DNA of 64,000 bases from a virus, in the IMG/VR virus record IMGVR_UViG_3300046753_000522, positions 1-64,000 of that record; one strand, written 5' to 3'. This document shows, piece after piece, positions 5,468-24,720 of the stretch (within the stretch, counting starts at the first letter, position 1; each line of letters opens with the position of its first letter). The notes under the pieces were generated by a model. The model had not been told where the DNA came from, searched no databases, and worked only from the letters and a program-made list of their open reading frames with translations. The translations under genes were made by a program, and so were the position numbers.

Positions 5468-5492
5468 TAGGAATTACCTTGTTAGTGAAATT

Positions 5493-5516: not shown

Positions 5517-5532
5517 AGTACTTATACCACCA

Positions 5533-6078: not shown

Positions 6079-6092
6079 TTTTCAATTCTCCT

Positions 6093-7871
6093 TTAGAAGT
6101 TGACTCGCTGAACGATCTCTTCAAAGTCTGCACCAGTACGTGTTGCCACGAAGTTCAGAGTGATGAAGTTGATAGAACGTGCGGGTTTGACGAAAATCGT
6201 AGCAACCATCTCGTTACGATCGATGACTTCAGGTGTGTTGTTCTGCTCATCACACTGTACAAAGAAGTCTTGAATACCACGACGACCTTGAATCTCGCGA
6301 AGGAGCGGTTCAACAATACCTACGAACTCGGAGCGAGTAAACTCGTCGTTGAATTCGAACAGGAAGTTACGAGCAGCAACAGAGATAGACTTCTCGAGGG
6401 CAAGGAACAAACGACGGACGTTGATGCGATCAAACGCAGACGGACGCGCTAGTTTAGTCTTGTCTCCCCACAGAAGCATACCACGACCAGCATATTGGAT
6501 AATCGGGTTTACGCCCTTCTTATACAATTCGTCTCGGTCTGCTTTACGGGCATTGTATGCCAAGTTTGTTGCACCGAAATACTCACCACGTCGCTCACCA
6601 GCAGGTGAGTACCACGGACCGTAGTTGTAATCGGTTGCCGCCATAATACCAGCAGTGGTAGAGGCAGCGGGAATGTAGATGTAGTTGTCATTGTACTTGT
6701 CGTAAACACGCAAGTAGTTATTGTCAACCGCCAAGTAGGAGGACGCCGAGAAACGATTGGTCGTTGCCAGAGTATCCTGTACAGGGTTGATTGAACCAAC
6801 TACAGCACTACGGTTAGGTGACGCAACTGCCAGACAATCCTTACGGATAGTAGCAGCAATGCTGGTCAGGTCATTTACAATCGTAACCTGATCATCGGGG
6901 TCGTTGAAACCAGGAGCGATCAACATTGAGACGTCAAGAGTTTCTGCGTCTTCAAAGTTATCCCAACCGATCATGTAGTCGCCTACGTCGAGTGCTTGGT
7001 GATCTTGTCCACCGCCCAAAGTAATTGCTGCGGAGTCAGCGGACCACGATACGTTGTCAGCATAGTTTGTTGTTCCAGTGATAGAAGGTGCACTACCCCA
7101 GTTATCGCCATTGGCGAAGTTATCTGAGTCGTACTTACCAAACCAAAGGAAATTAGAGAAACCATTTAGTACGTTGGGGAGATAGTTCTCGCCACCGTCT
7201 ACAGTCTTCGCTCCTTTGGCGACTGAAACGTATGAGAAAGTTTCCAGAACAGTATTCTTAGTGCCAGAGATCAAACCGTTCTCGTCAATGATAGCGACGT
7301 GAGTCTCATCGTTCAATACTGTTCCAGGTTGATTTTTCGCCCATTCGGAAGTTCCAGGAATTGCGTCGAACTTGTCGGCGTATTCCCAATTATCCCATGC
7401 TACAATGGTGTTTGCTGATTCTGCGCTTTCGCCAGACTCAATTGCAAACATAGCAACTTTGATAGAACTCCCAACCAGTCCAGGGTACTTTGCTACGAAC
7501 ATATGAAGAATGCTTTGAGATTCAAAGTCCTCTTCGTTCTTTACAAGCAAACCACCACCGCCTGATGTGGCGTTGAGTGCAGAGTCACCAGTTATTTGAC
7601 CCGTAGGAACTGTCCTGTTGACTATCAAATTTCCTGAATAACGAAGAAACTGTGCTGCGGAGAAATAGTCCACTGCTCGTTCTTCATCAGGAACGCCAAA
7701 CACAGAAGCAAGTTGCTCCTCAGTTTGGACGATAGTCGGAACATCCACGGGACCCCATTTGAATTGCCCAACATATCCCGAAAGAGAGGTGTCGACGTTC
7801 GGGACTACAGGAGTCAGGTCGAATTCTCGGACGATGATTGCAGGAGACAATGAAGGTGCTGTTAATGCCAT
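6093..7871 (-). CDS. 18: Contractile tail sheath protein, T4 gp18-like
   Basis: The sheath subunit contracts to drive the tube into the host envelope. The 592 residues compare with 659 in T4 gp18. The N-terminus (PSLSPAIIVREFDLTPVVPN) and the C-terminal domain (from about residue 470, with INVRRLFLALEKSISVAARN and ATIFVKPARSINFITLNFVA) are strongly conserved sheath segments. The central part is the variable, surface-exposed region. An AGAGGAT ribosome site precedes the ATG. A TATAAATA late promoter lies 73 bases upstream, which suggests independent high-level late expression of sheath and tube. Confidence 0.96.
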   Translation of the reverse strand: MALTAPSLSPAIIVREFDLTPVVPNVDTSLSGYVGQFKWGPVDVPTIVQTEEQLASVFGVPDEERAVDYFSAAQFLRYSGNLIVNRTVPTGQITGDSALNATSGGGGLLVKNEEDFESQSILHMFVAKYPGLVGSSIKVAMFAIESGESAESANTIVAWDNWEYADKFDAIPGTSEWAKNQPGTVLNDETHVAIIDENGLISGTKNTVLETFSYVSVAKGAKTVDGGENYLPNVLNGFSNFLWFGKYDSDNFANGDNWGSAPSITGTTNYADNVSWSADSAAITLGGGQDHQALDVGDYMIGWDNFEDAETLDVSMLIAPGFNDPDDQVTIVNDLTSIAATIRKDCLAVASPNRSAVVGSINPVQDTLATTNRFSASSYLAVDNNYLRVYDKYNDNYIYIPAASTTAGIMAATDYNYGPWYSPAGERRGEYFGATNLAYNARKADRDELYKKGVNPIIQYAGRGMLLWGDKTKLARPSAFDRINVRRLFLALEKSISVAARNFLFEFNDEFTRSEFVGIVEPLLREIQGRRGIQDFFVQCDEQNNTPEVIDRNEMVATIFVKPARSINFITLNFVATRTGADFEEIVQRVNF

Positions 7872-7943
7872 CTTGTTATCCTCTTATCGATTAGATATTA
7901 TATGATTCATTATAAGGTCGACACCAGAGTGTTCAATACCCAT

Positions 7944-7951
7944 TATTTATA
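7944..7951 (-). promoter_or_regulatory. Late promoter TATAAATA before the sheath gene
   Basis: An exact T4 late promoter core lies in the 82-base gap between the terminase stop (7954) and the sheath start (7871), giving a leader of about 65 bases. Placement in a real intergenic gap before a highly expressed virion gene makes this one of the most credible promoters in the window. Confidence 0.8.
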
Positions 7952-7953
7952 AG

Positions 7954-9591
7954 TTACCAGTTTTCCTCAAGTTGACCCTGATTATCGTAGAGTAGACCCC
8001 AAGGGTGCATCTTCTCTTCATACGTTATCTCATCGACCCCACCATTATCGTGCGCACCAAATGGTGGGACATCTGCCTCGATCTCTTGCATTCTCTGATC
8101 AAACATCATCTTCTTGACGTCGATGTCTGTCATCTCCGCGAAGTAGGAGGTTTGTATTAGGTATCCGAACATCACGAGGTTCATTACCAAGTCATCGTGA
8201 CAACCCTCCTTCGCTTCGTAGGAGTTGCCCTTTGCCTCAAAAGTTGAGATCTCGATAATTGAATCTTCGTCTACAACTTCCAAGCGGTTGGTTTCCAGCA
8301 CGTCTTTGAATCCAGAACAACCAAGTCTCTTGGTCTTACGGTTCATCTCCACGCCGATACCTGTCGCCTTCACAGAAGAAGTCATGTGCACGTTCTCATA
8401 CTCCCGCTCATGGTACAGTCCATTGCAGACAAGTTGTCCCGCATCGTTTGATTCAATGACGACATATGCCTCATTGTAGACATTTGCGTACTTATAGATA
8501 ATGTCAGGGAAGAGTAGTGGAGATATCGTGTTATTGCGATACACAGCGACCTGCTTAAATGGTCTGCTGCTAATATCGATTACCGTGAAGGTAGAATAAT
8601 CCTGTCCTCGACCTTTTGCAACATCGACAGTCATGACGTATTGAGATCCCTTACGGGATTCGTCATAGACAAGTAAGTCGCCACCCTCCAAAATTCGTTT
8701 TGGGCGGGATGCCTTTAGATTCAGTAGACAGTCTGCTGAGATAAGTGTATTTCCAGTACCAAAGAAAGTGTTCCCAAACTCCTGATCAAACTGCAACTGT
8801 GAAGTATTATTGACCGTGGTTTCTTTCCACTTCTCGTCTCTTCCAGGAACATCCCACCAGTCAACACGGAACGGAGTAAACTCGTTCACTCCCTGTACCG
8901 CACCTTCCCAAATCTTATGAAACGGATTGCCAATACCATTTGCAGTAGAGGTGATGATCACCTTGGTTTCCTTACCAGATGAGATTACTGGATAGGTCGA
9001 GGTGTAGAACTCGGCAGCACGTTCAACGAACGCAAACTCATCAAGGAACAGCAGGTTGACCGACTGACCACGAATAGAAGAACCAGAAGTAGAAGAGGCG
9101 AATATCTTTGAGTTGTTACTAAACTCGATGCTACCCTTGTTGAGTACCTTACATCCAGGTTGTAGGTAGAAAGGGATGTTCTCCAGCATCAGAGTGATCC
9201 GAGACAGCATTTCCCTCGCAGTTTGACCCTTGTTAGCGAGTATCGCGACATTCTTCTCTGGGTTGAAGAGGGCGTACCAGAGGAGGTATGCAACAGAGGA
9301 GATAGACTTACCTGACTGGCGGCAGGCGAGCACGACGTTAAATCGATTGGAGTTGAAGTGTGTGAACATCTCCTCTTGATACGGATACAGGTCAAAGGGG
9401 ACCAGTCCGTCGTCGAGGTTGATTACCTTGAGGTGAGTTCGGGCAAAGTGGGATGGGTCTGCCATACATCTGGCATACTCAGCAACCTTATCAGTGGTCC
9501 AGTCCTCTTCGATCCCATCCTTTTTAACATTGACATTGCCGAGATAATGAGAATCGTTCCGACTTTTAGTTGTGTCCTGAATCGATTGCAT
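7954..9591 (-). CDS. 17: Terminase large subunit, T4 gp17-like
   Basis: This is the packaging motor ATPase and nuclease that pumps DNA through the portal. The ATPase half has a Walker A at 90-97 (CRQSGKS) and a Walker B ending in D184-E185 (NLLFLDEFAF). The C-terminal RNase H-like nuclease shows the acidic residues D323 and D331 (TVDVAKGRGQDYST) and a late CHDDLVMN motif. The length of 545 compares with 610 in T4. The start overlaps the end of the small terminase gene by 26 bases, with an AAGGA site upstream. Confidence 0.97.
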   Translation of the reverse strand: MQSIQDTTKSRNDSHYLGNVNVKKDGIEEDWTTDKVAEYARCMADPSHFARTHLKVINLDDGLVPFDLYPYQEEMFTHFNSNRFNVVLACRQSGKSISSVAYLLWYALFNPEKNVAILANKGQTAREMLSRITLMLENIPFYLQPGCKVLNKGSIEFSNNSKIFASSTSGSSIRGQSVNLLFLDEFAFVERAAEFYTSTYPVISSGKETKVIITSTANGIGNPFHKIWEGAVQGVNEFTPFRVDWWDVPGRDEKWKETTVNNTSQLQFDQEFGNTFFGTGNTLISADCLLNLKASRPKRILEGGDLLVYDESRKGSQYVMTVDVAKGRGQDYSTFTVIDISSRPFKQVAVYRNNTISPLLFPDIIYKYANVYNEAYVVIESNDAGQLVCNGLYHEREYENVHMTSSVKATGIGVEMNRKTKRLGCSGFKDVLETNRLEVVDEDSIIEISTFEAKGNSYEAKEGCHDDLVMNLVMFGYLIQTSYFAEMTDIDVKKMMFDQRMQEIEADVPPFGAHDNGGVDEITYEEKMHPWGLLYDNQGQLEENW

Positions 9592-9926: not shown

Positions 9927-10589
9927 TTATATAGACACCTTTAAATCGCCGTGATGGACCCACAGTTTTCCAACAACTTCTGGATCTGTTGTGGGCAATC
10001 CGCTGAAGTCAAGGTACTGTAAGGAAGTAACATCCTCAACAATGGATGTTGTTGCCAGATAGTCTTGATCCAGAGTAGGAAATCCAGTATCAATTCCTTG
10101 AGACAAGTCATATGCGAGACTAAAGATGTCACTATCCGATGCACTGAAGTTGCCTGCTAATGACGCAGCAGAATCAGAGAGAGAAAGGGCATTGTAACTC
10201 AAGGCAAGAGACGCGCCAGCAACACGTGCCATTCGGTCGGCGGTCTCTTCAAATACAACTTTCTTTGCAGAGATCAGCGTCGTTTCTTTGGCACTGTCTG
10301 AAAGAGATACGATGTTCCTTTCGCCGAAATATGCAGGGAAATATGAAGTATCGTATGCAATCGCACCTGGATTAGCAACACGGAAGTCTGAGTCCGTGGT
10401 GTACTTTGTCCAAGTCGTTGTTGAGAGTGTGTGAGTGTACGGATTGTACTCATATCTCACATTGCTTGCTGGAAAGAGTCCAAGTTCTTGCTTTCTTTCT
10501 TCTGACCAGTCGAGGACATCTGCCCCAAGTGTGCTCTTGACCGCATGATTGCTGAGGTAAGAACTGGTCTTTTCGTAGTAATAAGACAT
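9927..10589 (-). CDS. Unknown virion-type protein
   Basis: The 220-residue protein has a family I do not recognise. It is rich in Ser, Asp and Tyr, with a helical, Ala/Ser-rich central part (about residues 100-165) and a C-terminus ending GKLWVHHGDLKVSI, which is reminiscent of closing strands in phage tail-fibre domains. The gene sits between the propeller protein and the small terminase, four bases from the latter. A good AGGAG site precedes the ATG at 10589. Its position at the end of the fibre island suggests a fibre-associated or structural role, but that is inference. Confidence 0.72.
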   Translation of the reverse strand: MSYYYEKTSSYLSNHAVKSTLGADVLDWSEERKQELGLFPASNVRYEYNPYTHTLSTTTWTKYTTDSDFRVANPGAIAYDTSYFPAYFGERNIVSLSDSAKETTLISAKKVVFEETADRMARVAGASLALSYNALSLSDSAASLAGNFSASDSDIFSLAYDLSQGIDTGFPTLDQDYLATTSIVEDVTSLQYLDFSGLPTTDPEVVGKLWVHHGDLKVSI

Positions 10590-10630
10590 TTTGCTGTTTC
10601 TCCTATTTAGGATTCATATTTTGTATTTGT

Positions 10631-12802
10631 TTATGATGAGGTGGCGCAGTATCCATAATCACCAACTGCGCAGTACTGAGTTCCATCCCATACGACTGCC
10701 CTCATAATTCCTTTTTTATCGGAACTACCCGCCACCGCTGCACCCAGACTCGGTTGATTTGTCCAAGTAACTCCATCAGATGAGGTGGCACATAAACCAT
10801 CTCGACCTACTGCTATGAAATGGTTCGCGTCGCTATTCCATATGACTTGCCCCCCAGAATTATAAGATACTGGGGGCGTCTGTCCCCCAGTAAATGGGGG
10901 AGAAACGTCGTTGCCCCATGCTGAAGCAAGACTCGGTTGATTTGTCCAAGTGGTTCCATCTGGTGAGGTGGCACATTCTCCACCTTCACCTACTGTACAG
11001 AATATAGAGAGTTCTGGAGACCATGCAATTGACGTCATAAGGGTCTCCTTCGCGCCTACTGCTGTTTCGAGATTATCATTTCCTGGCGTCCAATTAACTC
11101 CATCAGTAGAAGTTTTGAACTTTTTTTCTCCGATATTGGTCATATCCCAACTGCCCTGAGGTACTTTTCCACCAACTGCGCAGAACATACTACCATTCCA
11201 TGCAACATCGAATAAAACTTGACCATAGGCACTGCCGGACGCCGCAGTCCAAGTGATACCATCGCTTGAATAAGAAATTGCTCCCCCATCACCAACTGAG
11301 ACGAATAGAGAAAGTTCTGGTGCCCATATCACAGAATGTCTGGACGCCTCGGTGACCCCTGGGGGGGAGGCAACTGACGTCCAAGTCACTCCATCAGAGG
11401 AGGTATAGGTGGACCCCCACCATCCTTGCGCGACGAATAGAGAGAGTTCTGGGGAGTATGCCACAGTAATCAGCGGAGTGGAAAGATATTTGTCATTCAG
11501 AGTCCAAGTGACTCCATCGGGTGAGTTGAGGATCATACCCCCTGGCCAATTCTGCTGGTGGAGGTTTTCGCCTCCTCCAACTGCGACGAACTGGGTGCCA
11601 GACCATGCGATTCCCTTTGCGCTGGTTATACCGCTTGACATGGCAATCCCGAGATTATCTTGGAATGTCCATTTCTGTCCAGGTAGGTAATCAGTCCTAA
11701 ACGACCTTTCTTCTGACCACTCAGAGTTCAGACTCGCAGTATGGTGCTTGACTTTAACTGTGTAGTCTTTATTTCCTTCCAGACCAGTGGGTTCCCACGA
11801 TGTCAGGGCAGTGGCGTCTGAGTCGAGAGATGCTGCGACATTTCCAGAAAGGTCCACGATTGCCCAACTCGACGCAGTGTGAGTATCTGTTCCTTCTGCC
11901 ATCTCGAAGTCAGATGATCGGAAAGGTCCATTAGGTGAGATACTGAGTTCACCGTCAGTGGCAGGAGACTCAATAGTAGGTTGTAGAATAGTTGGTACTA
12001 TGTCAGCAGTTACTGTGGTCCAGTCTGCTGAGTCGCCTGCCGCCTTGAAAGTGTATGTGCTTGCAGTATTGTTTGATGAAGCATTTGTGTGACGGAGTTG
12101 TACCTCGTCTCCGGCAATCAGGTTGAAGTTTGGTTTCAGTACTGGATTGACCGAAATTGGTAATCCGCGGAAGTCGCCACCATTTGTAGCATATTGGGCA
12201 TCGCTGGTTGGCGCAGTGGTTGACCCATAAGGGTAAACATAACTGTTTACGCTATGAACAGTCACCACTCTTGATTCTGAAGCACCCCCCACGGGTTGGT
12301 CACTATCAACGGAGTTTTGGAATACAAATGAGGTCTCTTTCGCAATGGTGAGTTCGAAGGATTGGGATCCACCGAGACCATCACTTACAGTACCAGTAAT
12401 TGTTGTACCGTGTGGACCGTCGATACCGTTATTAGATCCAGGTTCGCCTGCCCACTTGGTCCAGATTTCGGTGTCGTTGTCAGTGGTCTCAATTTTATCA
12501 GTGAAGTTGTATCCATCATCCGAAATCACTAAAGGATAAGAGGCAGTAAGAATTCGACCACCAGCACCTTTCCATTCCACTGGTCCTGCTGGTTGAGTGT
12601 TTGTGGGTTCAGAAAGGATCGTTCCACCTTCCAATGGTCTGATTTCTATTTCGCCAATAAGAGGGATTACTTCTCCATCAGCATCTTTGGTGTACAAGAT
12701 CCGGTCAGGAAAGTTGATCGCCAGTTCACCAACAGCAATTTGGGTATCGTCTGGTTTGTTGCCAGCAATACTGGATCGTTTATGTTGTATAGTTTTAGAC
12801 AT
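10631..12802 (-). CDS. Fibre protein with FN3-like domain and seven-bladed propeller
   Basis: The protein has 723 residues. The first ~250 residues are nearly identical in pattern to the neighbouring protein at 12842-15754 (opening MSKTIQHKRSS, then NKPDDTQIAVGELAINFPDR). This opening resembles the attachment heads of phage fibre proteins. Residues ~270-375 look FN3-like, ending with NSEWSEERSFRT. From about residue 375 to the end there are seven repeats of 35-60 residues, each closing on an 'SxDGxTW' Asp-box-like motif, as expected for one seven-bladed beta-propeller. I infer a receptor-binding or decoration role at the virion surface. No catalytic sialidase residues could be assigned, so binding rather than cleavage is more likely. 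Confidence 0.85.
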   Translation of the reverse strand: MSKTIQHKRSSIAGNKPDDTQIAVGELAINFPDRILYTKDADGEVIPLIGEIEIRPLEGGTILSEPTNTQPAGPVEWKGAGGRILTASYPLVISDDGYNFTDKIETTDNDTEIWTKWAGEPGSNNGIDGPHGTTITGTVSDGLGGSQSFELTIAKETSFVFQNSVDSDQPVGGASESRVVTVHSVNSYVYPYGSTTAPTSDAQYATNGGDFRGLPISVNPVLKPNFNLIAGDEVQLRHTNASSNNTASTYTFKAAGDSADWTTVTADIVPTILQPTIESPATDGELSISPNGPFRSSDFEMAEGTDTHTASSWAIVDLSGNVAASLDSDATALTSWEPTGLEGNKDYTVKVKHHTASLNSEWSEERSFRTDYLPGQKWTFQDNLGIAMSSGITSAKGIAWSGTQFVAVGGGENLHQQNWPGGMILNSPDGVTWTLNDKYLSTPLITVAYSPELSLFVAQGWWGSTYTSSDGVTWTSVASPPGVTEASRHSVIWAPELSLFVSVGDGGAISYSSDGITWTAASGSAYGQVLFDVAWNGSMFCAVGGKVPQGSWDMTNIGEKKFKTSTDGVNWTPGNDNLETAVGAKETLMTSIAWSPELSIFCTVGEGGECATSPDGTTWTNQPSLASAWGNDVSPPFTGGQTPPVSYNSGGQVIWNSDANHFIAVGRDGLCATSSDGVTWTNQPSLGAAVAGSSDKKGIMRAVVWDGTQYCAVGDYGYCATSS

Positions 12803-12815
12803 TTGTCAATTCCTC

Positions 12816-12829
12816 AGAATATGTATTCT
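12816..12829. repeat. Palindromic leader element, copy 1
   Basis: AGAATATGTATTCT is a palindrome with a 2-base centre, placed immediately upstream of the ribosome site of the gene at 10631-12802. The same element with the same flanks occurs at 15768-15781 before the paralogous gene. It may be a regulatory hairpin, or simply part of the duplicated segment. Confidence 0.6.
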
Positions 12830-12841
12830 GTTTGTATTTGT

Positions 12842-13740
12842 TTATGGTGATGTGGCACATTTGCCTTCATAACCAACTACACACAACTGAGTGCCAGACC
12901 ATGTGATTGATTCCATCCTTTCACCTCCCACCGCTGCATTGAGACTCGGTTGTTCGGTCCAAGTAACTCCATCAGGGGATGTGGCACATTTGCCATCACC
13001 ACCAACTGCACAGAATTGAGCGCCAGTCCATATGACTGATTCCATCCTTTCACCTCCCACCGCTGCATTGAGACTCGGTTGAAGTGTCCAAGTGACTCCG
13101 TCAGGGGATGTGGCACATTTACCACCACTACCAACTGCACAGAATTGAGCGCCAGTCCATATGACTGATTTCACCCATGCATCACCCACTGCTGAAGTGA
13201 AACTCGGTTGGTTTGTCCAAGTAACTCCATCTGGGGATGTGGCACATTTACCATCGAGACCGACTGCGACAAACTGTGTGCCGTCCCATGTGACTGAGTA
13301 CATACTTTGACCTCCCACTACTGATGCGAGACTCGGTTGATTTGTCCAAGTAACTCCATCAGGGGATGTGGCACATAGACCGTCATAACCAACTGCGCAG
13401 AACTGAGTTCCAGACCATGTGACTGAGTACATATCGTATGGACTCGCTATTGTAGTGAGACTCGGTTGTGCTGTCCAAGTGACTCCATCAGGTGATGTGG
13501 CACATCTACCTTTCCAACCAACTGCGCAGAACTGACTGCCGTCCCATACGACTGATAACATGAACCCACCGGTCGTTGCTGAATTGAAACTCCGTTGTCT
13601 TGTCCAAGTAACTCCATCAGGAGAGGTGGCACACATACCAGGTCCACCAACTGCGCAGAACTGAGTGCCGTCCCATGTGACTCCGTTCATACTTTTGTTA
13701 CCCACTACTGATGCGAGACTCGGTTGACGTGTCCATTTCT
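12842..13740 (-). repeat. Propeller repeats 8-14 (about 123-129 bp unit)
   Basis: Seven tandem copies of a unit of roughly 41 codons lie here. They are highly similar at DNA level; the phrase 'ggggatgtggcacatttacc' or close variants recur once per unit. Such similarity makes the array prone to recombination and to assembly collapse. Confidence 0.88.
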
Positions 13741-15754
13741 CTCCGATAAGATTCTGAGTCCTAAACGACCTTTCTTCTGACCACTCAGAGTTTAATGTAG
13801 CAGTATGATGCTTGACTCTGATTTTGTAATCTGCATTTCCGTCCAGACCAGTGGGTTCCCAAGAGGTCAGAGCAGAGGTGTCTGAGTCGAGAGATGCTGC
13901 TACTGATTGAGATCCAGTGGCACATGTACCACCTTGCCCAACTGTGCAGAACTGAGTGCCAGACCATATGACAGAGTTCAACTCTGTATAACCCACTGCT
14001 GAATTGAGACTCGGTTGAAGTGTCCAAGTAATTCCGTCTGGAGATGTGACACATTTGCCATCCCAACCACCAACTGCGCAGAACTGACTGCCATCCCATG
14101 CAATTGAGTGCATATATGTTGAATCCACTGCTGTAGTGAAATTCGGTTGGTTTGTCCAAGTGACTCCATCAGGTGATGTGACGCATTTACCATCATAACC
14201 AACTACGCAGAACTGAGTTCCAGACCATATGACTGACCTCATCTGTCTATAACCCACTGATGATTCGAAATCCGATTGATTTGTCCAAGTAACTCCATCA
14301 GGCGATGTGGCACATTTACCATTCATTCCAACTGCACAGAACTGAGTTCCAGACCATGTGACTGAGTTCATCAACGCGTAAGTCACTGCTGGTTTGAAAC
14401 TCGGTTGATTTGTCCAAGTAACTCCATCAGGCGATGTGGCACATCCCTCACCAACTGCACAGAACTGAGTGCCAGACCATGTGACTGAGCGCATACCCTC
14501 AGAGAGACTGCCCCCCAATGCTGATGCGAGACTCGGTTGATTTGTCCAAGTGACTCCATCAGGGGATGTGGCACATTTACCACTCTCACCAACTGCACAG
14601 AACTGAGAACCATTCCATACGACTGATTTCATTACCCCCGATCCTACTGCTGATTTGAGACTCGGTTGATTTGTCCAAGTAACTCCATCTGGGGATGTGG
14701 CACATTTACCATCGAGACCGACTGCGCAGAACTGAGTGCCAGACCATGCGACTGCATTCATATCTTTGTTATCCACTACTGATGCGAGACTCGGTTGATT
14801 TGTCCACACCAGTTCACCCATTATCTCCCAACTGGATGCAGTGTGAGTATCTGTTCCTTCTGCCATTTCGAAGTCTGATGAGACGAATGGTCCATCAGGC
14901 GAGATACTGAGTTCACCGTCAGTAGCAGGTGATGCTATCTTAGGTTGTAGAATAGTTGGTACTATGTCAGCAGTTACTGTGGTCCAGTCTGCTGAGTCAC
15001 CTGCCATGATAAAATTGTAGGTGCTTGCGGTATTGTTTGTTGAGGCATCTTGATGTCGGAGTTGGAATTCATCTCCCTCGGTTATGTAGTCTGTCGCACT
15101 ACCAGCATTTGTTGCTGGCATCGCAGTCCATGAACCACCATTCTTGGCGTACTCAGGAGAGGTGCCAGTGGTCGTTCCGGAGGGATAGACATAACTGTTC
15201 ACACTATAGGCAGTTACTACTCTCGATTCTGAAACACCACCGACTGTTTGGTCACTATCAACGAAGTTGTGGAATACAAACGAGGTCTCTTTGTCGATGG
15301 TCAACTCAAATGATTGAGATCCACCGATATCATCGGTCACACTACCGCTAATGACTGTACCATGTGGACCGTCGATACCATCACCAGATCCAGGTTCGCC
15401 TGCCCACTTCGTCCAAATTTCGGTATCGTTATTAGTGGTCTCAATTTTATCAGTGAAGTTATATCCATCATCTGAAATTGTCATAGGATAAAAGGCAGTG
15501 AGTAATACGCCACCAGAACCTTTCCATTCCACTGGTCCTGCAGGGTGAGTGTTTATGGGTTCAGAAAGGATCGTTCCACCTTCCAACGGAAGGTCTTCTG
15601 TTTCTCTAATAAGAGGAATTACTTCTCCGTCAGCAGTTTTGGTGTACAAGGTCCGATCAGGAAAGTTTATTGCCAATTCGCCAACAGCAATTTGGGTATC
15701 GTCTGGTTTGTTTCCTGCTACACTTGAGCGTTTGTGCTGTATAGTCTTCGACAT
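12842..15754 (-). CDS. Fibre protein with two seven-bladed propellers
   Basis: The 970-residue protein is a paralogue of the protein at 10631-12802, sharing the N-terminal ~250 residues and the FN3-like segment. I count fourteen repeats of about 41 residues, with consensus WTNQPSL-x-SAVG-x-MxSVxWSGTQFCAVGxxGKCATSPDGVT. Seven lie at residues ~315-610 and seven at ~662-970. Two groups of seven fit two seven-bladed beta-propellers. The first group interrupts the FN3-like domain: HTASSW lies before it and SVAASLDSD after it, two segments close together in the paralogue. Nearly every blade carries two Cys (QFC...GKC), 27 in the repeats by my count, which is unusual. A surface binding role is inferred. 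Confidence 0.87.
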   Translation of the reverse strand: MSKTIQHKRSSVAGNKPDDTQIAVGELAINFPDRTLYTKTADGEVIPLIRETEDLPLEGGTILSEPINTHPAGPVEWKGSGGVLLTAFYPMTISDDGYNFTDKIETTNNDTEIWTKWAGEPGSGDGIDGPHGTVISGSVTDDIGGSQSFELTIDKETSFVFHNFVDSDQTVGGVSESRVVTAYSVNSYVYPSGTTTGTSPEYAKNGGSWTAMPATNAGSATDYITEGDEFQLRHQDASTNNTASTYNFIMAGDSADWTTVTADIVPTILQPKIASPATDGELSISPDGPFVSSDFEMAEGTDTHTASSWEIMGELVWTNQPSLASVVDNKDMNAVAWSGTQFCAVGLDGKCATSPDGVTWTNQPSLKSAVGSGVMKSVVWNGSQFCAVGESGKCATSPDGVTWTNQPSLASALGGSLSEGMRSVTWSGTQFCAVGEGCATSPDGVTWTNQPSFKPAVTYALMNSVTWSGTQFCAVGMNGKCATSPDGVTWTNQSDFESSVGYRQMRSVIWSGTQFCVVGYDGKCVTSPDGVTWTNQPNFTTAVDSTYMHSIAWDGSQFCAVGGWDGKCVTSPDGITWTLQPSLNSAVGYTELNSVIWSGTQFCTVGQGGTCATGSQSVAASLDSDTSALTSWEPTGLDGNADYKIRVKHHTATLNSEWSEERSFRTQNLIGEKWTRQPSLASVVGNKSMNGVTWDGTQFCAVGGPGMCATSPDGVTWTRQRSFNSATTGGFMLSVVWDGSQFCAVGWKGRCATSPDGVTWTAQPSLTTIASPYDMYSVTWSGTQFCAVGYDGLCATSPDGVTWTNQPSLASVVGGQSMYSVTWDGTQFVAVGLDGKCATSPDGVTWTNQPSFTSAVGDAWVKSVIWTGAQFCAVGSGGKCATSPDGVTWTLQPSLNAAVGGERMESVIWTGAQFCAVGGDGKCATSPDGVTWTEQPSLNAAVGGERMESITWSGTQLCVVGYEGKCATSP
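13921..14812 (-). repeat. Propeller repeats 1-7, inserted in an FN3-like domain
   Basis: Seven tandem copies of the same unit as at 12842-13740 lie between the two halves of an FN3-like domain that is uninterrupted in the paralogue at 10631-12802. The edges are marked by HTASSWEIMGELVWTNQ on one side and GSQSVAASLDSD on the other. Confidence 0.85.
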
Positions 15755-15767
15755 TTGTCAATTCCTA

Positions 15768-15781
15768 AGAATATGTATTCT
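15768..15781. repeat. Palindromic leader element, copy 2
   Basis: This is an identical copy of the 14-base palindrome at 12816-12829, with matching flanks (ATTCCT on the gene side). It lies just upstream of the ATG at 15754. The shared leader shows that the duplication of the two fibre genes included their translation-start regions. Confidence 0.6.
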
Positions 15782-15793
15782 GGTTTATTATTA

Positions 15794-15817
15794 ATGGACC
15801 ACCATATGGTGGTCCAT
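15794..15817 (-). terminator. Perfect 24-bp palindrome in a fibre-gene gap
   Basis: ATGGACCACCAT is followed directly by its reverse complement. As RNA it would form a stem of about 10 bp with a short ATAT loop. It lies 22 bases past the stop of the gene at 15840. On the minus strand the following bases are TAATAATAAACC, without a T run, so it is a weak terminator candidate, an mRNA-stabilising hairpin or a dimeric protein site. Confidence 0.5.
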
Positions 15818-15839
15818 GTAATGTTGTACTATATGTATA

Positions 15840-18476
15840 TCAGAAATCGTCACCGCCGCTACCAGCATCAATGGTGGTAAGTACAATGCTGTTGCCGTTC
15901 AGGTCCTGGTAGTCGGACGCTCGAATAGGCGCTCCGTCAAAAAGAAACTTGTCGTTGTACTGAACATACTGAGACTGTTTGCCATAACCAGATACCAGCA
16001 TTTCAATTGGAACATTCATCCCCCAATTATTCGAGGTCATGATCGTCACGATCTCGCCGTTTGGACCTTCATTGCCGCTAATGGACACAGTGCCACCACC
16101 GCCTCCGTTTGTGATACTTATGCTGTTCGATCCTACGACAGTACCACCAGCGTCCGTAACTGCTTGACCCGTACCAAAATCAGTTGTACGGACGGACATC
16201 CAGTCGCTAGACCAAACCGAATCGTAAAGAACAACAAACTCTGGAAGGTTCGATATGTCCGTTGTGTTCTGGTCAATACTTGCTTGGAGTGTATTATGCT
16301 CAGTTACGTTCCAAGCATGCTCAGAGTCGAGACTTGCTTGTAGTGCGACATACTCAGTTACATTCTGACTTCTTTCAGAGTCAAAGAGTGCATCTACCTG
16401 TGACTGGGTGTAGTACCAACCGTCGGTGATATCCTGCCTAACCGAAACGGTAGGTCGGACAGGGTCAGTTTCGTCGACTTCGATTGCTGTGCCTGCTTGA
16501 ACGCGAACAACGGAGGCAGAGTTAATGCTTCCGACATTCTGCCAAGTGGAACCGTCTGAATCCCAGACAAGTCCGTCACCAGAGTCGACAGTTGACAGTC
16601 CAACCCAACTCGCGTCTGCTGTACCAGAGGAAGTGTTGATGTACATATCCCCGTTGCCAGCATCAGGAGCAGTAGAGTAACCTGAAATGTTATCAGTAGC
16701 ATCAACCGTTCCTTTGAAACTAACCGTCGAGGCGATACCGATATTCGAGTTTGTCCAAACACTTCCGTTCCATTGCAACACGTCATCGCCTGCGAGGGTC
16801 GGAGTGTTGATCTGCACATCAGAAAGATTATCAATTGACATTCTCTCATCAAGGAAGGCAGAATCAATTGCCGTAGTTATACGGGCGTCTACGCGAGCAT
16901 CAGTATAGTAGAGGTTCGAACCTTCATCAACATCGGTAGTAGTCAGTTCGTCTATCCTTTGGTTGATAGAACCGTTCTCAGTTACGTTCCAAGCATGCTC
17001 TGAGTCTAAACTTGCTTGTAGTGCAGCATGGTCAGTTGCATTCTGCGATTCATTCGTATCGATATTTGCTTGAAGTGTATTATGTTCTGCTACATTCCAA
17101 GCATGCTCTGAGTCGAGACTTGCCTGAAGAGCAGCATCAGCAGTTGTCCTGTCCGTGACTTCTGTGTCTACCCTAACTCCTAAATCGGAGTCAGCGTTCG
17201 AACGAGTTGTTGCTTCAGCATCGATGTTGGTCTGCAAAGTCGCATCATCTGATACGCTCTGTCCTCTTTCAGAATCGAGGAGAGCATCAACTTCTGTTTT
17301 GCTATAAGCATCAGTCGGAACAGGTAATCCTGTCACTGTTGCTCCAGTGAAGTCAACATCTCCAGTCGCCGTAATGTTAGCGATATCCAGAGTACCATCA
17401 GTCTGGTCAGTACCAGCGTCGATGATTGTGTGTAACCCGTCTGGAGTAGTTACATCACCAGCAGTAGCACCATATACTGTTCCGGAGAAGATTGCATTTT
17501 CAGCATCGACGATCACATTTGCACTACCGTCAATCAAGTTGCCTTTGTATGTGGCAGCGGTATTGACATCCCCAGCATCGAGGACAATAGCAGTAGTGTC
17601 AGTTGGGTCAGCAAGGTTATATCCAACCTTTGTGACATAGTCGACCTGTGCTGGTATACCATCTATGCTTGCCTGAAGTGCAACATGTTCTCCTACGTTC
17701 CAAGCATGCTCAGAGTCGATGCTTGCCTGTAGTGCGGCGTGGTCTGTTGCGTTCTGCGATTCATTAGAATCAATGCTTGCCTGTAGTGCGGCACGTGCTT
17801 CTAGATTATCGCTATCCTTATCATCAATCTCTGCCTGTGTATAGTACCAACCGTCAGTGACAGTCTTGTCAACAGAAACCGTGGGACGAGAAGGATCAGT
17901 TTCATCAACTTCGACACCCGTTCCTGGTTGAACCTGGACTACAGAACCACTGTTAATGTTTCCTACGTTTCTCCAAGTTGAGTCGTCGTTATCCCAAACA
18001 ATGGCGTCACCAGCGGTTACAGATCCTAAACCTGTCCAACTGGCATCTGCTGTACCGTCAACGGTATTGATATAGAGATCACCATTCGATGCAGAAGGGG
18101 CAGTTTCAGTAGTAGCATCTACTGAACCTTTGAACTCAACTGTCGAGGTGATACCGAGGTTTGCGTTTGTCCAAACACTTCCGTTCCACTGCAGTATATC
18201 AGTAGCATTAAGCGTTGGTGAGTTGATTTGCACATCCGAAAGATTGTCAATTGGCATTCTCTCATCGAGGAAGGCAGAATCAATTGCCGTGTTTATATGG
18301 GCATCTACTCGTGCATCAGTATAGTAGAGATTAGATCCCTCTGCCACTGAATCCGTAGTGAGATTATCAATCCTCTGTGCGAGTTCATCTTCGGCGGTTG
18401 ACTCCTCCCACACCCATTTTCCATTGACAAGTACCCATCCATTTTGGGCGGGGTCTGTAATCGATTCACTGGTCAT
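15840..18476 (-). CDS. Repetitive tail fibre protein
   Basis: The 878-residue fibre-type protein starts with a short 'WVLVNGKWVWE' segment. A module of about 190 residues follows (LAQRIDNLTTDSVAEGSNLY to VTDGWYYTQ). Next comes a central region with repeats of the LQASIDSEHAWNVAEH kind, which should form trimeric coiled coil, then a second copy of the 190-residue module near residues 505-695. A C-terminal domain (from ~730) contains GGGGGTVSISGNEGPNGEIV and ends in GSGGDDF. The same module occurs in the large fibre at 19399-24720. These repeats are common in tail fibres of environmental T4-like phages. I infer part of the long-fibre or receptor-binding apparatus. Confidence 0.85.
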   Translation of the reverse strand: MTSESITDPAQNGWVLVNGKWVWEESTAEDELAQRIDNLTTDSVAEGSNLYYTDARVDAHINTAIDSAFLDERMPIDNLSDVQINSPTLNATDILQWNGSVWTNANLGITSTVEFKGSVDATTETAPSASNGDLYINTVDGTADASWTGLGSVTAGDAIVWDNDDSTWRNVGNINSGSVVQVQPGTGVEVDETDPSRPTVSVDKTVTDGWYYTQAEIDDKDSDNLEARAALQASIDSNESQNATDHAALQASIDSEHAWNVGEHVALQASIDGIPAQVDYVTKVGYNLADPTDTTAIVLDAGDVNTAATYKGNLIDGSANVIVDAENAIFSGTVYGATAGDVTTPDGLHTIIDAGTDQTDGTLDIANITATGDVDFTGATVTGLPVPTDAYSKTEVDALLDSERGQSVSDDATLQTNIDAEATTRSNADSDLGVRVDTEVTDRTTADAALQASLDSEHAWNVAEHNTLQANIDTNESQNATDHAALQASLDSEHAWNVTENGSINQRIDELTTTDVDEGSNLYYTDARVDARITTAIDSAFLDERMSIDNLSDVQINTPTLAGDDVLQWNGSVWTNSNIGIASTVSFKGTVDATDNISGYSTAPDAGNGDMYINTSSGTADASWVGLSTVDSGDGLVWDSDGSTWQNVGSINSASVVRVQAGTAIEVDETDPVRPTVSVRQDITDGWYYTQSQVDALFDSERSQNVTEYVALQASLDSEHAWNVTEHNTLQASIDQNTTDISNLPEFVVLYDSVWSSDWMSVRTTDFGTGQAVTDAGGTVVGSNSISITNGGGGGTVSISGNEGPNGEIVTIMTSNNWGMNVPIEMLVSGYGKQSQYVQYNDKFLFDGAPIRASDYQDLNGNSIVLTTIDAGSGGDDF

Positions 18477-18556
18477 TGTGAAACTCCTGAGTTCTATTGT
18501 AGTTTTTACTTATCCTGGGTATTGGGTGCGAATTTGGCGCCATACATAATGCCACA

Positions 18557-19399
18557 TTAAGCGTACCCGAAAACAGTTGCAGCGATAGCGCACCTGGGCG
18601 ACGATCCAGCAGTCGTATTTGTTAATGTTATACTTGGATTAGATGCTCCTGTGATTACAGCGAACCTACCTGAACCCAAGGAATTATCGACTCCAGCATA
18701 GGTAGATACTGATCCAGTGCTGGTTGTTATTTGCATGCTCGATGTGGTGCCAAAGTCGGTGTATCCAGCGATGAAGATTATATCATCGGTAGTTGCAGTC
18801 ATCTGAAGGGAGATAGGTGAACCCGAACCCTTTGCTGTGGTCTTTGACTGAAGTGCTGTTGAACCTCTGTTACCATTAACAAGTCTAAACGCAGCAGCAC
18901 CACCACGGAATCCACCCGAGTTAGTGGTTTGTGCGACTGTAAGAGTACTATCCCCTATCAGGTTACCACTTGCTGCGCGACTTCCCACATATACACTGGT
19001 CTGATCCGCAGATGACATCGGCGTGCGGGCATGGTGAGTGCAGTTATTGGAGTTCAAGGTGTAAGTCTGATCGGAGGTACCAGTACCCTCCACTCCACCG
19101 CAGACAACAATGGTGTCGTCGGCGGTTACAGTTGAACCATTCACACTCCCGCTGAAAAATGAAGAGGTGGCGTTGATCACACTACCCAAGTATACGAAAC
19201 TTAAAGGAACTTCCGCTGATGCACCTTGCCACTCATTAAACCCCATCTGAGTGGCATCGCCTTTGCCAATGATTGCTCGTATATCAGCATCATTTATTCC
19301 GCACTGAGTGCCCGTTACGCCGCCTGCTTCAATATGTATCTCATTCAGAGATATCTGACCAGTCGGTAGTGCACTTGTTGTTGCAGAATCGCCACTCAT
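18557..19399 (-). CDS. Putative fibre tip or adhesin-like protein
   Basis: The 280-residue protein opens with GQISLNEIHIEAGGVTGTQC and then GINDADIRAIIG, a start found in small fibre or tip proteins of marine myoviruses. A Gly/Ser/Thr-rich beta domain follows (residues 65-280) with no charged clusters, ending RCAIAATVFGYA. The start codon overlaps the stop of the large S74 fibre gene at 19399, suggesting coupled expression with it. A cap or tip for that fibre is a reasonable guess, not shown by the sequence. Confidence 0.75.
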   Translation of the reverse strand: MSGDSATTSALPTGQISLNEIHIEAGGVTGTQCGINDADIRAIIGKGDATQMGFNEWQGASAEVPLSFVYLGSVINATSSFFSGSVNGSTVTADDTIVVCGGVEGTGTSDQTYTLNSNNCTHHARTPMSSADQTSVYVGSRAASGNLIGDSTLTVAQTTNSGGFRGGAAAFRLVNGNRGSTALQSKTTAKGSGSPISLQMTATTDDIIFIAGYTDFGTTSSMQITTSTGSVSTYAGVDNSLGSGRFAVITGASNPSITLTNTTAGSSPRCAIAATVFGYA

Positions 19400-22300
19400 T
19401 ACTTTTTCAACTCCTCAATCTCTGCGGAGAGTTGTTTGATACTCTCAATCAGAAGTGGCACAAGTCTGGCGTAGTCCACAGTGAGGTATTCTTCACCGGA
19501 CACACTTCCACCCTCGCCGTCATCATCCACTGGGGCGCGATGGATTACCTCTGGCACCACTTCCATTACAGACTGTGCACTCACACCGACTTCTTTCTTG
19601 TCACCCTCGTAACCCAACTCGTGTGCTTTGTCGTTGGGAGTGTAGTAGAAAGTTTCGATTGACTTGACCTTCTCTATTGGGTCTTCGATACTGCCAACCA
19701 CATTCTTGAGTCTCTCATCAGAGTAGTAGGCGACAATATTCGATGTACACCTGAGTTCGGAAGTGAACCTCTTGATACCACCGACATCTTGAGCACCAGA
19801 AGTCTTCACTGCATCGGAACCAGTATACAGCGTTGGTTTACCTGTCAGGTCATCATAAGCACCACTAAAGGTGCTGACAGTGACAGCACCAGTGCTACCA
19901 TTCACACTGGACACATAAGAAGTTGTATCCGCGAGAGCGCCAACATCTGCGGCATCGAGGACAACCGTCCCCGTCTGACCGTTGACAGTGTCAATCGGTG
20001 CGGAGACTATCTCAGATGCATTTGCTAGTCTCACCCAATTTCCTGCATGAGCAAAGTATCCTGCTCCAGTGCCGTGGACGTGAGCAAACATGCCGTGGTT
20101 GTCTGTAGCAGATGGTAGGTCACCCTCCGCAGAGTACACATTGGAGAAGAGAACTTTGTTTCCTCCCATGTCTAGAGTGCTCGATGTGACCGCACTGATT
20201 GCATCTGCTGAATCAAATCCAGTCGGGATACTTATCAGAGCATTTACATATGCTGAGTCGACAACTGTTTCTACACGCTCATCGGTGAAGTACAAGTTGT
20301 TTGACCCTTCATCGATGTTATCTGTTGTCGCATTATTGACAATCAGTGTTGCCCTGACATCTGCTCGAGCATCCGTGTAGTACAGGTTGGTTGAACCTTC
20401 TGCCAGATCATCCGTGCTTGCGATAGAACTACCGTCAACTCCGTCCCTGCCTGCTGCTCCGTCTCTACCTGTTGGACTCTCCAACCAGTAGACTCCATCC
20501 CAGATCCACATGACTGCGTCGCCACTATCGGGTGTCTCTAACCATTGTTGTCCCATGTTAGGGGCAGTGGGCGCGTCCTTATTAATGTAAACGACACCCG
20601 CACTATCAAAGTTGACACGTGCTTGTACATATGCCGAGTCTACGAATGTTTCAACACGAGCATCAGTATAGAAAAGATTGGTTGAACCTTCTGCTAGGTC
20701 ATCTGTAGACTTCTGCGCAAAGTTAGAGTCTACCCTCGCATCCGTGTAATAGAGGTTCGAACCTTCTGCCACTGAATCCGTGGTGAGGTTATCAATCCTC
20801 TGACCAAGGTCAGCATCTTCGCTTGACAACGCTGCGATAGCAGAGTCGACATACTTCTTATGTGGGATGTCGAGGTCGTCGGTAACTCCATAGTCGGCAT
20901 TGTATGTTGCCTTTTGGAAGTTCTTGTTTGCGCCACTAATGATCTGTATTGCTGCGCTGGTGTTTCTCTGTATGGTGAGATTGCTATCACCAACACTGGA
21001 GATCTTATTGGTTCTGATCTTACCCTGATCATACACCTCAATGTTTCCATTATTGACATAGATAGAGTTACCACTATCGAAAATGAGGTTACCAGTCATG
21101 GTGTCGCCCGACTTATTAACCTTATCACTGTCGCTGACACCCGCCGTAATAGCATTCAATGCACTGTCGACGTATTGTTTATTAGTCGCGTGATGATCCA
21201 TATTAGGATACTTCACATGGTATAAACCCAGAGATCCATTGCTTACCGATATGAACACATCATTTGTGTCTGAATCGGCGATCTTGAATTCTTCTTTCAC
21301 CATGTTGCGTTTCGATTTGTGCAGTAATTCGTTGGTCTCAGTTTCAAGATCGCCCAACTTCTGGAACATTGGTTGCAGATTCTGTTCTGTTGCGACTAAC
21401 TCATCGTCGAAGTAGAGTCCAACTTGATGCTTATCCCATACGAGTCTCTGGAAACTACCGTCATCAACACTAAGGAGGAACGAATTGTCGAGAGGGGAGA
21501 ATGCTGCGCCCCACATTGAACTTTTAAATTGCCTATTGACAAGGGTCCAGTTGATGCCATCCTTTGACACCATTATCTTGGAACTTCCACTGGATTCCCG
21601 ACTACCTGCTACCCAAAGTCCGTTACCATATGCCACAGATACCCAACGTTTTTCGGATGCTGCAGATGCCGCAGTCCAGTTGATACCATCGGTCGAGTAC
21701 ATGACTCGGTTTGTGCCATCAGATGATACTGCTACGAACTTTCCGTCGCCGTATGTTATACCGAACCATTGATTTTCTTCTACTCCCGCTGTTGCCGTGT
21801 TCCAGTTTACACCATCGGTAGAGTAGATGACAAAACCATTATTGGTTGGGAAATCATCGTATGCTACTGCTACAAAAGTGCCATTGCCATATGCAATGTC
21901 TTGGAACTCTGCTGCCAGTGCATTGTGGTTGTTCCAATTGATACCGTCTGTCGAGGTAGAAACTTGATATGTGCCTCTACTCGTTACTGCTACAAACTTG
22001 CCATCACCGTATGTGACTGCTGAGTATCCACCGTAGTCGTTTCCGTCACCTGGAGCATAACCTGTTGCTTCCTGCCATGTTTCTGCGTTGTCTGTTGAAT
22101 AGAGAATCTTGTTTGTGAAACTGTAGATTACTGTTACCCAAGTTCCGTTACCATCTGTTGCGACATCATAGTATCCGCTTTTCTCATGGGCAGTGGTTGC
22201 AGTGGTCCAATTAATTCCGTCATCGGAGTAGATGATACCTTCGAAGTCGTCATTCTTTGAAATGGATACTGCTACCCATCTACCATTAGCATATTCAACT

Positions 22301-24720
22301 GCCCTTAAACTCTGACCAGTCTTGGTCGACAAGTGGCGCATCCAAGCATCGGTGAAATTCGCCTCTGTCTTCATTTCTAAATCGAAGTCTGAGTCGGAAC
22401 CACCCGCGAAGGTTACTGCAGATCTGAAGGCATTGGACGAATCTCGATACATTCGAACTTCAGGCAATGACAGTTTACCAGTCATCGTATCGCCAGTCAC
22501 ATCTACAAACTGTGATGAATCCATTTGGTCGAATGAAATGTTAGCGAAAGCAGAGTCGAGCATTCTCTTGTTGACCGCGTCATATGAATCAACGGCATCT
22601 GCCACATCGGTGATACGATGACTGTTCATGCTGATGTTTACATTGTAATCTATCGATGCGTCTGCATTGAAACTTACCATGTCCACATTAACAGTAGAAC
22701 TGTCTTTAGTCTCTACATCCAGATTGTCCTGAGTGAAGAATGTCATTCCCGATCCAACAGTCTGGATGTGATTGACATCCATGACCCAGAATGATCCATC
22801 TACCGTGACAGAAGAAACTCCATAGTCCGCATACTGACCTGCCTTGTACAATCGAATGATGGTCCCTATGGTGGGAGTGTTGATCGTATTACCATCGGGG
22901 CGACTGGTGAAACTCAATTTCCATTGAGTGATTTCTGACGGGTCTCGAGAACCACCCAGATTTGCCTGGATATCTCCTGCACCGACTGTATCCGTCGATC
23001 TCCTATAGACGATCTTTCCAAATGGTAAAAATTCTGACTCGGTTCCTCGAATCTTCAGACTGTTGCCAGAACTTCCTCCTGTGAGTCGAACTGTAACATC
23101 AGATGCTGATGGGTTGTTGTTGAAGAGATCGATGTGCTGGGCAGAATCAGGATCAATGGTCATGATGGTCTGATGGGCACCATTAAATGCTAAAGTCCCC
23201 GACATAGCATCACCAGACTTTGAGACCTTGCCACTGTCAAGAGCAGCATGTTCTGCTACGTTCCACGCATGCTCAGAGTCGACAGTGGCATCTAAATATG
23301 CTTTGTGTATCAAGTCATACTCATGATTTCCCGCCGATTGAGAAGCAAGGTAGTTGTATCTTGCTGGTCTATTACTAAACTCTGTCACACTGCTCGAAAG
23401 TATGATACCTGAAGATCCTGATTTCTGAAGGCGCAGATCTTCGCCAGTGAGACTGGACACTATACTTGAAGCAACTTCACCTTCTACAATTACCGAACCT
23501 GTCACTGTTCCGCCAGTGAGGGGAAGGTATCCGGCGAGATCCGAGTCGACTTGTGACTGCGTATAGTACCAACCGTCGGTTACAGTCTTGTTGATAGAAA
23601 CCGTGGGGCGAGCAGGATCAGTCTCGTCGACTTCAATACCCGTTCCAGGTTGAACACGAACAATAGAACCGCTGTTAATGTGCCCTACGTTTCTCCAACT
23701 TGTATCATCTTCGTCCCAAACAAGACCGTCACCAGAATCTACGCTCGTCAGTCCGACCCAACTCGCGACTGCCGTACCAGAGGAGGTGTTGATATAGAGG
23801 TCGCCATTATCCGCTGATGGAGCAGTCTCGACGGTTGCGTCGGTTGTTCCCCTAAAAGTGACAGTAGTTGCGATACCAATATTCGTGTTTGTCCAGACAC
23901 TACCATTCCACTGAAGAACGTCAGTAGCATCGAGAGTAGGGAAGTTTATTTGAACGTCAGAAAGATTGTCAATTGGCATCCGTTCATCAAGGAAGTCCGA
24001 GTCAATTGCCACATCAATGCGGGCATCTACTCGAGCATCGGTATAGTAGAGGTTCGAACCTTCTGCCACTGAATCCGTGGTGAGGTTATCAATCCTCTGC
24101 CCAAGTTCTACATGCTCTGTTGCGTTTTGTGCTTCGTTTGAGTCAATACTTGATTGCATCGAATCAATACTTGATTGCAGTGCGTTATGTTCTGCTACGT
24201 TCCAAGCATGCTCAGAGTCTAGACTTGCTTGTATTGCGGAAGTATCGGACAGGTCTGAATCAAGCGAGTCAATGCTTGCTTGAAGTGCAGCGTGTTCTGC
24301 TGCATTTCGTGCTTCGTTTGAGTCAATGCTTGCTTGTAGTGCAGCATGCTCTGCTACGTTCCATGCATGCTCAGAGTCTAAATGGTCAGAGGGATCATGG
24401 GCAGCAAAGTCGCTATCGAACCTTGCAGTAGTATAGTACAGGTTGGTTGAACCTTCTGCTAGGTCATCTGTAGACTTCTGCGCAAAGTTAGAGTCTACCC
24501 TCGCATCCGTGTAGTACAGGTTGGTTGAACCTTCTGCCAGATCATCCGTAGTTGAGGATTCAATTGTTGAAGAAGAATCGGCGCCAAGGATGTAATCTGT
24601 TAGTCCTTGGATCGATACTTTCTTCGTTCGCATTGTCTCATTATCGACGAATGGTACTACGTCGAGTGGAGATATATCGGAATCTCCAGGTGGCAGTTGC
24701 GAAATCTTAATGAGTGCCAT
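19399..24720 (-). CDS. Large tail fibre with propeller and C-terminal S74 chaperone
   Basis: The protein has 1773 residues. The N-terminus (MALIKISQLPPGDSDISPLD) is followed by YTDAR and LQASIDSEHAWNVAEH repeats and one copy of the 190-residue module shared with the neighbouring fibre. Seven repeats at roughly residues 792-1100, with 'YSTDGINW' motifs, fit a seven-bladed propeller. More fibre repeats follow, including a short Gly-rich GRDGAAGRDGVDGS collagen-like stretch. The last ~107 residues are a peptidase S74 domain beginning SDERLKNVVG, with Ser1667 and Lys1672. S74 domains trimerise fibres and then cut themselves off before the Ser, so the mature fibre probably ends near residue 1666. 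This is the best candidate for the main receptor-binding fibre. Confidence 0.9.
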   Translation of the reverse strand: MALIKISQLPPGDSDISPLDVVPFVDNETMRTKKVSIQGLTDYILGADSSSTIESSTTDDLAEGSTNLYYTDARVDSNFAQKSTDDLAEGSTNLYYTTARFDSDFAAHDPSDHLDSEHAWNVAEHAALQASIDSNEARNAAEHAALQASIDSLDSDLSDTSAIQASLDSEHAWNVAEHNALQSSIDSMQSSIDSNEAQNATEHVELGQRIDNLTTDSVAEGSNLYYTDARVDARIDVAIDSDFLDERMPIDNLSDVQINFPTLDATDVLQWNGSVWTNTNIGIATTVTFRGTTDATVETAPSADNGDLYINTSSGTAVASWVGLTSVDSGDGLVWDEDDTSWRNVGHINSGSIVRVQPGTGIEVDETDPARPTVSINKTVTDGWYYTQSQVDSDLAGYLPLTGGTVTGSVIVEGEVASSIVSSLTGEDLRLQKSGSSGIILSSSVTEFSNRPARYNYLASQSAGNHEYDLIHKAYLDATVDSEHAWNVAEHAALDSGKVSKSGDAMSGTLAFNGAHQTIMTIDPDSAQHIDLFNNNPSASDVTVRLTGGSSGNSLKIRGTESEFLPFGKIVYRRSTDTVGAGDIQANLGGSRDPSEITQWKLSFTSRPDGNTINTPTIGTIIRLYKAGQYADYGVSSVTVDGSFWVMDVNHIQTVGSGMTFFTQDNLDVETKDSSTVNVDMVSFNADASIDYNVNISMNSHRITDVADAVDSYDAVNKRMLDSAFANISFDQMDSSQFVDVTGDTMTGKLSLPEVRMYRDSSNAFRSAVTFAGGSDSDFDLEMKTEANFTDAWMRHLSTKTGQSLRAVEYANGRWVAVSISKNDDFEGIIYSDDGINWTTATTAHEKSGYYDVATDGNGTWVTVIYSFTNKILYSTDNAETWQEATGYAPGDGNDYGGYSAVTYGDGKFVAVTSRGTYQVSTSTDGINWNNHNALAAEFQDIAYGNGTFVAVAYDDFPTNNGFVIYSTDGVNWNTATAGVEENQWFGITYGDGKFVAVSSDGTNRVMYSTDGINWTAASAASEKRWVSVAYGNGLWVAGSRESSGSSKIMVSKDGINWTLVNRQFKSSMWGAAFSPLDNSFLLSVDDGSFQRLVWDKHQVGLYFDDELVATEQNLQPMFQKLGDLETETNELLHKSKRNMVKEEFKIADSDTNDVFISVSNGSLGLYHVKYPNMDHHATNKQYVDSALNAITAGVSDSDKVNKSGDTMTGNLIFDSGNSIYVNNGNIEVYDQGKIRTNKISSVGDSNLTIQRNTSAAIQIISGANKNFQKATYNADYGVTDDLDIPHKKYVDSAIAALSSEDADLGQRIDNLTTDSVAEGSNLYYTDARVDSNFAQKSTDDLAEGSTNLFYTDARVETFVDSAYVQARVNFDSAGVVYINKDAPTAPNMGQQWLETPDSGDAVMWIWDGVYWLESPTGRDGAAGRDGVDGSSIASTDDLAEGSTNLYYTDARADVRATLIVNNATTDNIDEGSNNLYFTDERVETVVDSAYVNALISIPTGFDSADAISAVTSSTLDMGGNKVLFSNVYSAEGDLPSATDNHGMFAHVHGTGAGYFAHAGNWVRLANASEIVSAPIDTVNGQTGTVVLDAADVGALADTTSYVSSVNGSTGAVTVSTFSGAYDDLTGKPTLYTGSDAVKTSGAQDVGGIKRFTSELRCTSNIVAYYSDERLKNVVGSIEDPIEKVKSIETFYYTPNDKAHELGYEGDKKEVGVSAQSVMEVVPEVIHRAPVDDDGEGGSVSGEEYLTVDYARLVPLLIESIKQLSAEIEELKK
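21420..22345 (-). repeat. Seven propeller repeats in the S74 fibre
   Basis: Seven units of about 42-47 codons each carry a pattern of aromatic-Gly-x-Gly-x-[FW]-V-A-V, then [YM]-S-x-D-G-[IV]-N-W. I count seven, consistent with a single closed propeller placed mid-fibre. Confidence 0.8.

Follow-up and report, generated by a model that had tools for sequence, protein, structure and literature searches.

The gp119 protein of Synechococcus phage S-CBWM1, annotated as 'BNR repeat domain protein' (ATW62803), contains an FN3-like domain and, after it, a C-terminal propeller. In the IMG/VR record 3300043406_000078 (L255), a tail-fibre-like gene (3373-8490) encodes seven tandem FN3-like domains and then a C-terminal BNR/DUF6242-like propeller. 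Three further loci (L097, 4954-6861; L099, 5077-7260; L107, 4591-6723) encode two propellers' worth of blades per chain, about 14, directly in tandem. In the integrin alpha subunits, the I domain is inserted into a propeller. These subunits gained the I domain in the course of their evolution (PMC12422189), and highly repetitive, recently amplified β-propellers have been described, propellers of similar blades arising continuously (PMC9218822); a word search of the text of the latter paper finds no mention of phages or insertion.

We analysed a window of 64,000 nucleotides (positions 1 to 64,000 of the IMG/VR virus record IMGVR_UViG_3300046753_000522), in which two adjacent paralogues, A and B, encode fibre proteins (Table 1). 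Protein A resembles S-CBWM1 gp119, whose FN3-like domain is homologous and whose C-terminal propeller has a related fold. B differs from gp119, which has an unbroken domain, a single propeller, about 30% identity and no gp37-like N terminus, and from L255, none of whose FN3-like domains is interrupted. The blades of L097, L099 and L107 are of B's type, but no propeller stands inside another domain in these proteins. As in the propellers of PMC9218822, blade identity is mostly > 60% in both B propellers, whereas in B a whole propeller sits within another fold. Like the integrin I domain, the insert of B would add a binding module to a receptor, its binding being probable; there, however, the I domain is what was gained, whereas in B the propeller itself is the insert. 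The locus cleanly exemplifies a familiar type of change rather than a new type of system, and its wider weight is limited since tail-fibre domain shuffling and propeller growth from similar blades are already known. It provides a before/after pair within one genome, with an empty site in A beside a filled site in B, and outgroups establish the direction of change. The pair suggests that a four-residue turn within a fibre domain can accommodate a fold of ~300 residues, and lends itself to the question of how phage adhesins gain additional heads.

Two fibre paralogues and the inserted propeller

A and B are 78% identical over their aligned N-terminal part. Both open with a gp37-like distal tail-fibre N terminus of ~45 residues. 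In B this stretch (first 45 residues, with the match at residues 3-48; phrog_1699, E about 2e-15; 61% identical to the gp37 proteins of T4-like phages) matches gp37, the distal subunit of the T4 long tail fibre, and no match to the shaft and tip of that fibre is found past residue ~50. B is probably a T4-like phage tail-fibre adhesin with two putative binding heads.

Table 1. Coordinates of the fibre paralogues A and B and of their domains in the window
Feature	Position	Strand	Remarks
Protein A, 723 aa	10631-12802	-	Paralogue; unbroken FN3-like domain, single C-terminal propeller
Protein B, 970 aa	12842-15754	-	Tail-fibre protein; gp37-like N terminus, split FN3-like domain, two propellers
FN3-like domain left part, B residues 270-312	14819-14947	-	QPKIASPATD...HTASSWEIM
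Inserted seven-blade propeller (I1-I7), B residues L315-T613	13916-14812	-	AF2 pLDDT ~97 over most
FN3-like domain right part, B residues 614-668	13751-13915	-	GSQSVAASLDSD...ERSFRT
C-terminal seven-blade propeller (C1-C7), B residues 674-970	12845-13735	-	Second propeller of B
FN3-like domain of A, unbroken	11678-12007	-	AF2; insertion site corresponds to turn L318-N321
C-terminal seven-blade propeller of A (A1-A7)	10634-11671	-	A5-A7 closest to B blades

Across the insertion site A is intact (SSWAIVDLSGNVAASLDSD) and reads HTASSW-AIVDLSGN-VAASLDSD. The corresponding segment of B reads HTASSW-EIM, then G313-T613 (301 aa, the propeller starting from L315), then GSQS-VAASLDSD; SSWEIM thus immediately precedes G313-T613 and GSQSVAASLDSD follows it. 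A reading made from the DNA letters alone (hereafter the sequence-only reading) had proposed a complete seven-repeat propeller lodged in a loop of an FN3-like domain. Both parts of this proposal hold, as the same segment is unbroken in A and split in B, and seven in-frame blades build a complete propeller in the AF2 model. Of the edges it had given, 13921-14812, the lower one falls about 5 bases short: the insert spans ~299 in-frame codons from window position 14812 (L315; 14818 when GE is counted) to 13916 (T613). It contains exactly seven blades (43, 43, 44, 43, 43, 44 and 37-39 aa, the last being shorter) of the approximate pattern WTNQPSLxSAVGxxxMxSVxWSGTQFCAVGxDGKCATSPDGVT, and Tandem Repeats Finder independently reports a period-129 array at 13917-14806. 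The insert and the C-terminal propeller have the same blade phase at both ends (GE then WT, to CAT), and the 14 B blades share 64-86% DNA identity with one another, which excludes a likeness by chance.

AF2 analysis of the insert, with an input alignment that included propellers of other loci, predicts a complete seven-blade propeller (pLDDT about 97). Foldseek analysis of this model reports YCF48 as the best PDB match (E 1.9e-12, probability 1.00), and the best viral matches are DUF6242/BNR phage proteins, S-CBWM1 gp119 among them. We assign the predicted fold with very high confidence to the seven-blade propellers, close to the solved Asp-box member YCF48. The Pfam family DUF6242 (PF19755; cut-off 29) scores 57.4 bits on B, in seven stretches, and only 15.8 bits on A. 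The SxDxGxTW motif, in the form given in PMC9218822, is absent from the B blades, which carry S-P-D-G-V-T-W, one residue shorter, and are therefore Asp-box-like and strictly no members.

When folded by AF2 with the homologous domains of L255 and L256, the FN3-like domain of A is a confidently predicted all-beta domain of seven strands (pLDDT mostly > 85), and the insertion site corresponds to a four-residue β-hairpin turn (L318-N321) flanked by strands 310-317 and 322-329. In the AF2 run of the inserted state, the split halves are poorly modelled (left half pLDDT < 50). The domain is called FN3-like because the Pfam fn3 cut-off of 25 is not reached in B (11.4 bits) and its relatives match FN3/Ig-like families only under the cut-off.

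Direction and age of the insertion

The nine homologous FN3-like domains of other phages (S-CBWM1 and the two IMG/VR phages L255 and L256) are all unbroken, and A, S-CBWM1 and L255 all place the FN3-like domain ahead of a C-terminal propeller. A related FN3-like-domain motif is also present in P-HM1. Since the homologous domains are unbroken elsewhere and B holds the sole interrupted copy among those found, the insertion in B is the derived state, and not a loss from A. This agrees with the sequence-only reading, which had taken the split in B for an insertion, and no relative with an ancestral insertion appears among these nine domains. IMG/VR was queried with the complete protein and with its N-terminal and FN3 parts, and no close relative of this fibre came up. 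In 44 terminase-relative records, the FN3 part and the propeller are absent and at most the first ~50 residues match. The left-junction sequence pattern has zero matches and the right-junction pattern occurs in nine contigs, none with an FN3-like domain or blade. Searches from which records very near this genome were excluded revealed no other phage with this insertion; the junctions therefore rest on one metagenome contig, and close relatives may exist unseen.

The synonymous divergence (pS) is 0.45 (0.39-0.52) between the N-terminal parts of A and B and 0.32 between their FN3 right parts. Between the inserted (I) and C-terminal (C) propellers of B it is 0.30, and within each propeller 0.31. 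The I-C value falls below the one for the N-terminal parts of A and B and thus suggests that the insertion followed the A/B duplication; an insert older than the duplication, which had been named as speaking against the sequence-only reading, fits these values less well, although blade exchange can mimic a low I-C pS. The dating is suggestive, since pS ranges from 0.15 to 0.64 across blade position classes, as frame exchange or loop saturation would give.

Source of the inserted blades

Mean DNA identity is 74.5% between the I and C blades, 74.7% within C, 56% to the A blades and at most 59% to blades of other phages, the best outside group being that of L097 (mean 59%). By this measure B has a single pool of I and C blades, with ~75% DNA identity within and between propellers. 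In a blade tree of the B and A blades plus 47 outside blades, the smallest clade that holds all 14 B blades takes in just three further blades, all from A (which has seven), and every one of the 47 outside blades falls elsewhere. Since the I and C blades are far nearer each other than any outside blade, the donor most likely belonged to this fibre family and, most simply, would have been the C-terminal propeller of B itself or its direct ancestor. Within the propeller of A, blades are uneven: A5-A7 resemble the B blades and A2-A4 have diverged much further, as though the ring had been partly renewed.

The sequence-only reading had gone further and proposed that one complete cassette had probably been copied from the C-terminal propeller of B. 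The origin of the blades in this fibre family stands, and the copying of a cassette blade by blade is unproven. Register between the I and C blades gives a weak signal, with p = 0.009 for amino acids (0.06 when blade 1 is left out) and p = 0.135 for DNA. The tree of these blades, with 43 codons each, is weak. The AU test rejects strict I-C register pairing (0.005), which rules out a strict blade-by-blade descent of I from C, and does not reject the pairing of blades 1-5 (0.054) or of the two end blades (0.22). A clade of the I blades alone (0.14) or of the C blades alone (0.18) is not rejected, and both together are (0.018). A register common to the I, C and A blades is likewise ruled out (p 0.0016). 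No exact repeat between the two arrays is longer than the 57 bases identical in I1 and C4, which are evidence of a later out-of-register exchange between blades, and identities of 41 and 45 bases occur within C5-C7. The common blade phase, the variable-loop letters NK-x-MN common to I1 and C1, and the amino-acid register signal nevertheless favour the copying of a whole cassette, and a whole copy followed by blade exchange and local turnover of C5-C7 fits best.

We consider it probable that an A-like fibre was duplicated, that a propeller stretch of the family was inserted in frame into the FN3-like hairpin turn of B, and that blades were exchanged later. The ancestral gene would have encoded a gp37-like N terminus, linker domains, an FN3-like domain and a C-terminal propeller. 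Since the two ends of a propeller adjoin each other, the FN3-like domain could still close around the insert, and the fibre tip would then carry two propeller heads in series. Later exchange between the blades of the two propellers would have homogenised their frame, the loops of one face staying variable, and this variable face would probably bind the host surface.

Growth in place, in which a single blade or short segment entered the turn and was amplified to seven in parallel with C, is unlikely. Propeller growth from single blades is documented (PMC9218822), and the star-like blade tree with no clear register would suit it, but both blade phase and blade number match the C propeller at both ends. 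The amino-acid register, weak as it is, is positive, I1 and C1 share their loop letters, and an incomplete propeller at this site would probably not have folded along the way. An external origin, from a propeller gene of another phage or of a host, with the C propeller of B later homogenised to or replaced by the insert, appears still less plausible. The equal divergence of I and C within and between propellers means that the data do not fix the direction of copying, and tandem proteins of two times seven blades are known in other phages; however, the sampled outside blades are never near I, even those of L097, and the three blades from neighbouring gene A in the same clade indicate a pool resident in the fibre family.

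It is very unlikely that the ancestor of A and B already had the split domain and that A later lost the propeller by deletion. Strictly, no A/B orthologue was found to give polarity at close range, but the nine unbroken homologous domains, the lower synonymous divergence of I-C compared with A-B, and the precision required of a deletion restoring a four-residue turn all make a single insertion the likelier event. The least credible explanation is an assembly chimera of repeat-rich reads, which a metagenome contig with repeated blades from a single source might bring to mind. Both junctions lie in unique sequence outside the repeats, the reading frame of 970 codons is intact, and the longest exact repeat between the arrays reaches just 57 bases. 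Moreover, the right FN3 parts of B and A differ at synonymous sites, and the one in B is hence no copy of A's.

Loop variation and the fibre gene cluster

Replacement changes are most frequent at blade positions 12-17 (pN 0.51) and 31-34 (pN 0.42), while strand c and the Asp-box-like turn are nearly fixed (pN 0.04). The strand order of the AF2 model identifies these two variable stretches as the d-a and b-c loops. In the standard propeller topology, these loops lie on one face, which is the usual ligand face. This concentration of variation suggests that the variable face binds a ligand or the host surface. The loop variation, the gp37-like N terminus and the position of the gene among other fibre genes together point to a two-headed host-binding tip, and the insertion may drive receptor-binding diversity. 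A diversity-generating retroelement behind the loop variation was considered and dropped, as no reverse transcriptase (RVT_1) is present on the 101,940-base contig, which is possibly incomplete. It is conceivable, though we hold it only tentatively, that both B propellers and the last A blades form one exchangeable pool in which recombination homogenises the frames and the loops of one face stay variable. If so, a single fibre gene could use its own parts to assemble new binding faces and even new propeller heads.

The virus contig has a T4-like layout with portal, tube, sheath and terminase genes and, upstream of these, genes for a tail sheath stabiliser and for head closure. Among sequenced phages, the nearest terminase match is that of Phage C48C1 (Kyanoviridae), with 70% identity. 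The fibre gene cluster (9927-24720) has the tail sheath stabiliser (24744-25919) on one side and the terminase genes on the other. The stabiliser stands immediately before the terminase genes in Phage C48C1 and in most related contigs (59 out of the 65 with the stabiliser in view), and different fibre-like genes occupy this interval in L045 and L063; the cluster therefore looks like a variable adhesin island. Within it, a fibre ORF of 1773 aa (19399-24720) has a third propeller in its middle (21433-22311, minus strand), whose seven blades are more degenerate and which has fibre-like sequence on either side. No relative, whether with or without this propeller, was found. Finally, a segment at 36702-37187 (minus strand), within an ORF of 2884 aa (29628-38282), weakly matches the propeller of the 1773-aa fibre (28% identity, E 3.8e-5) and is possibly a fourth propeller.
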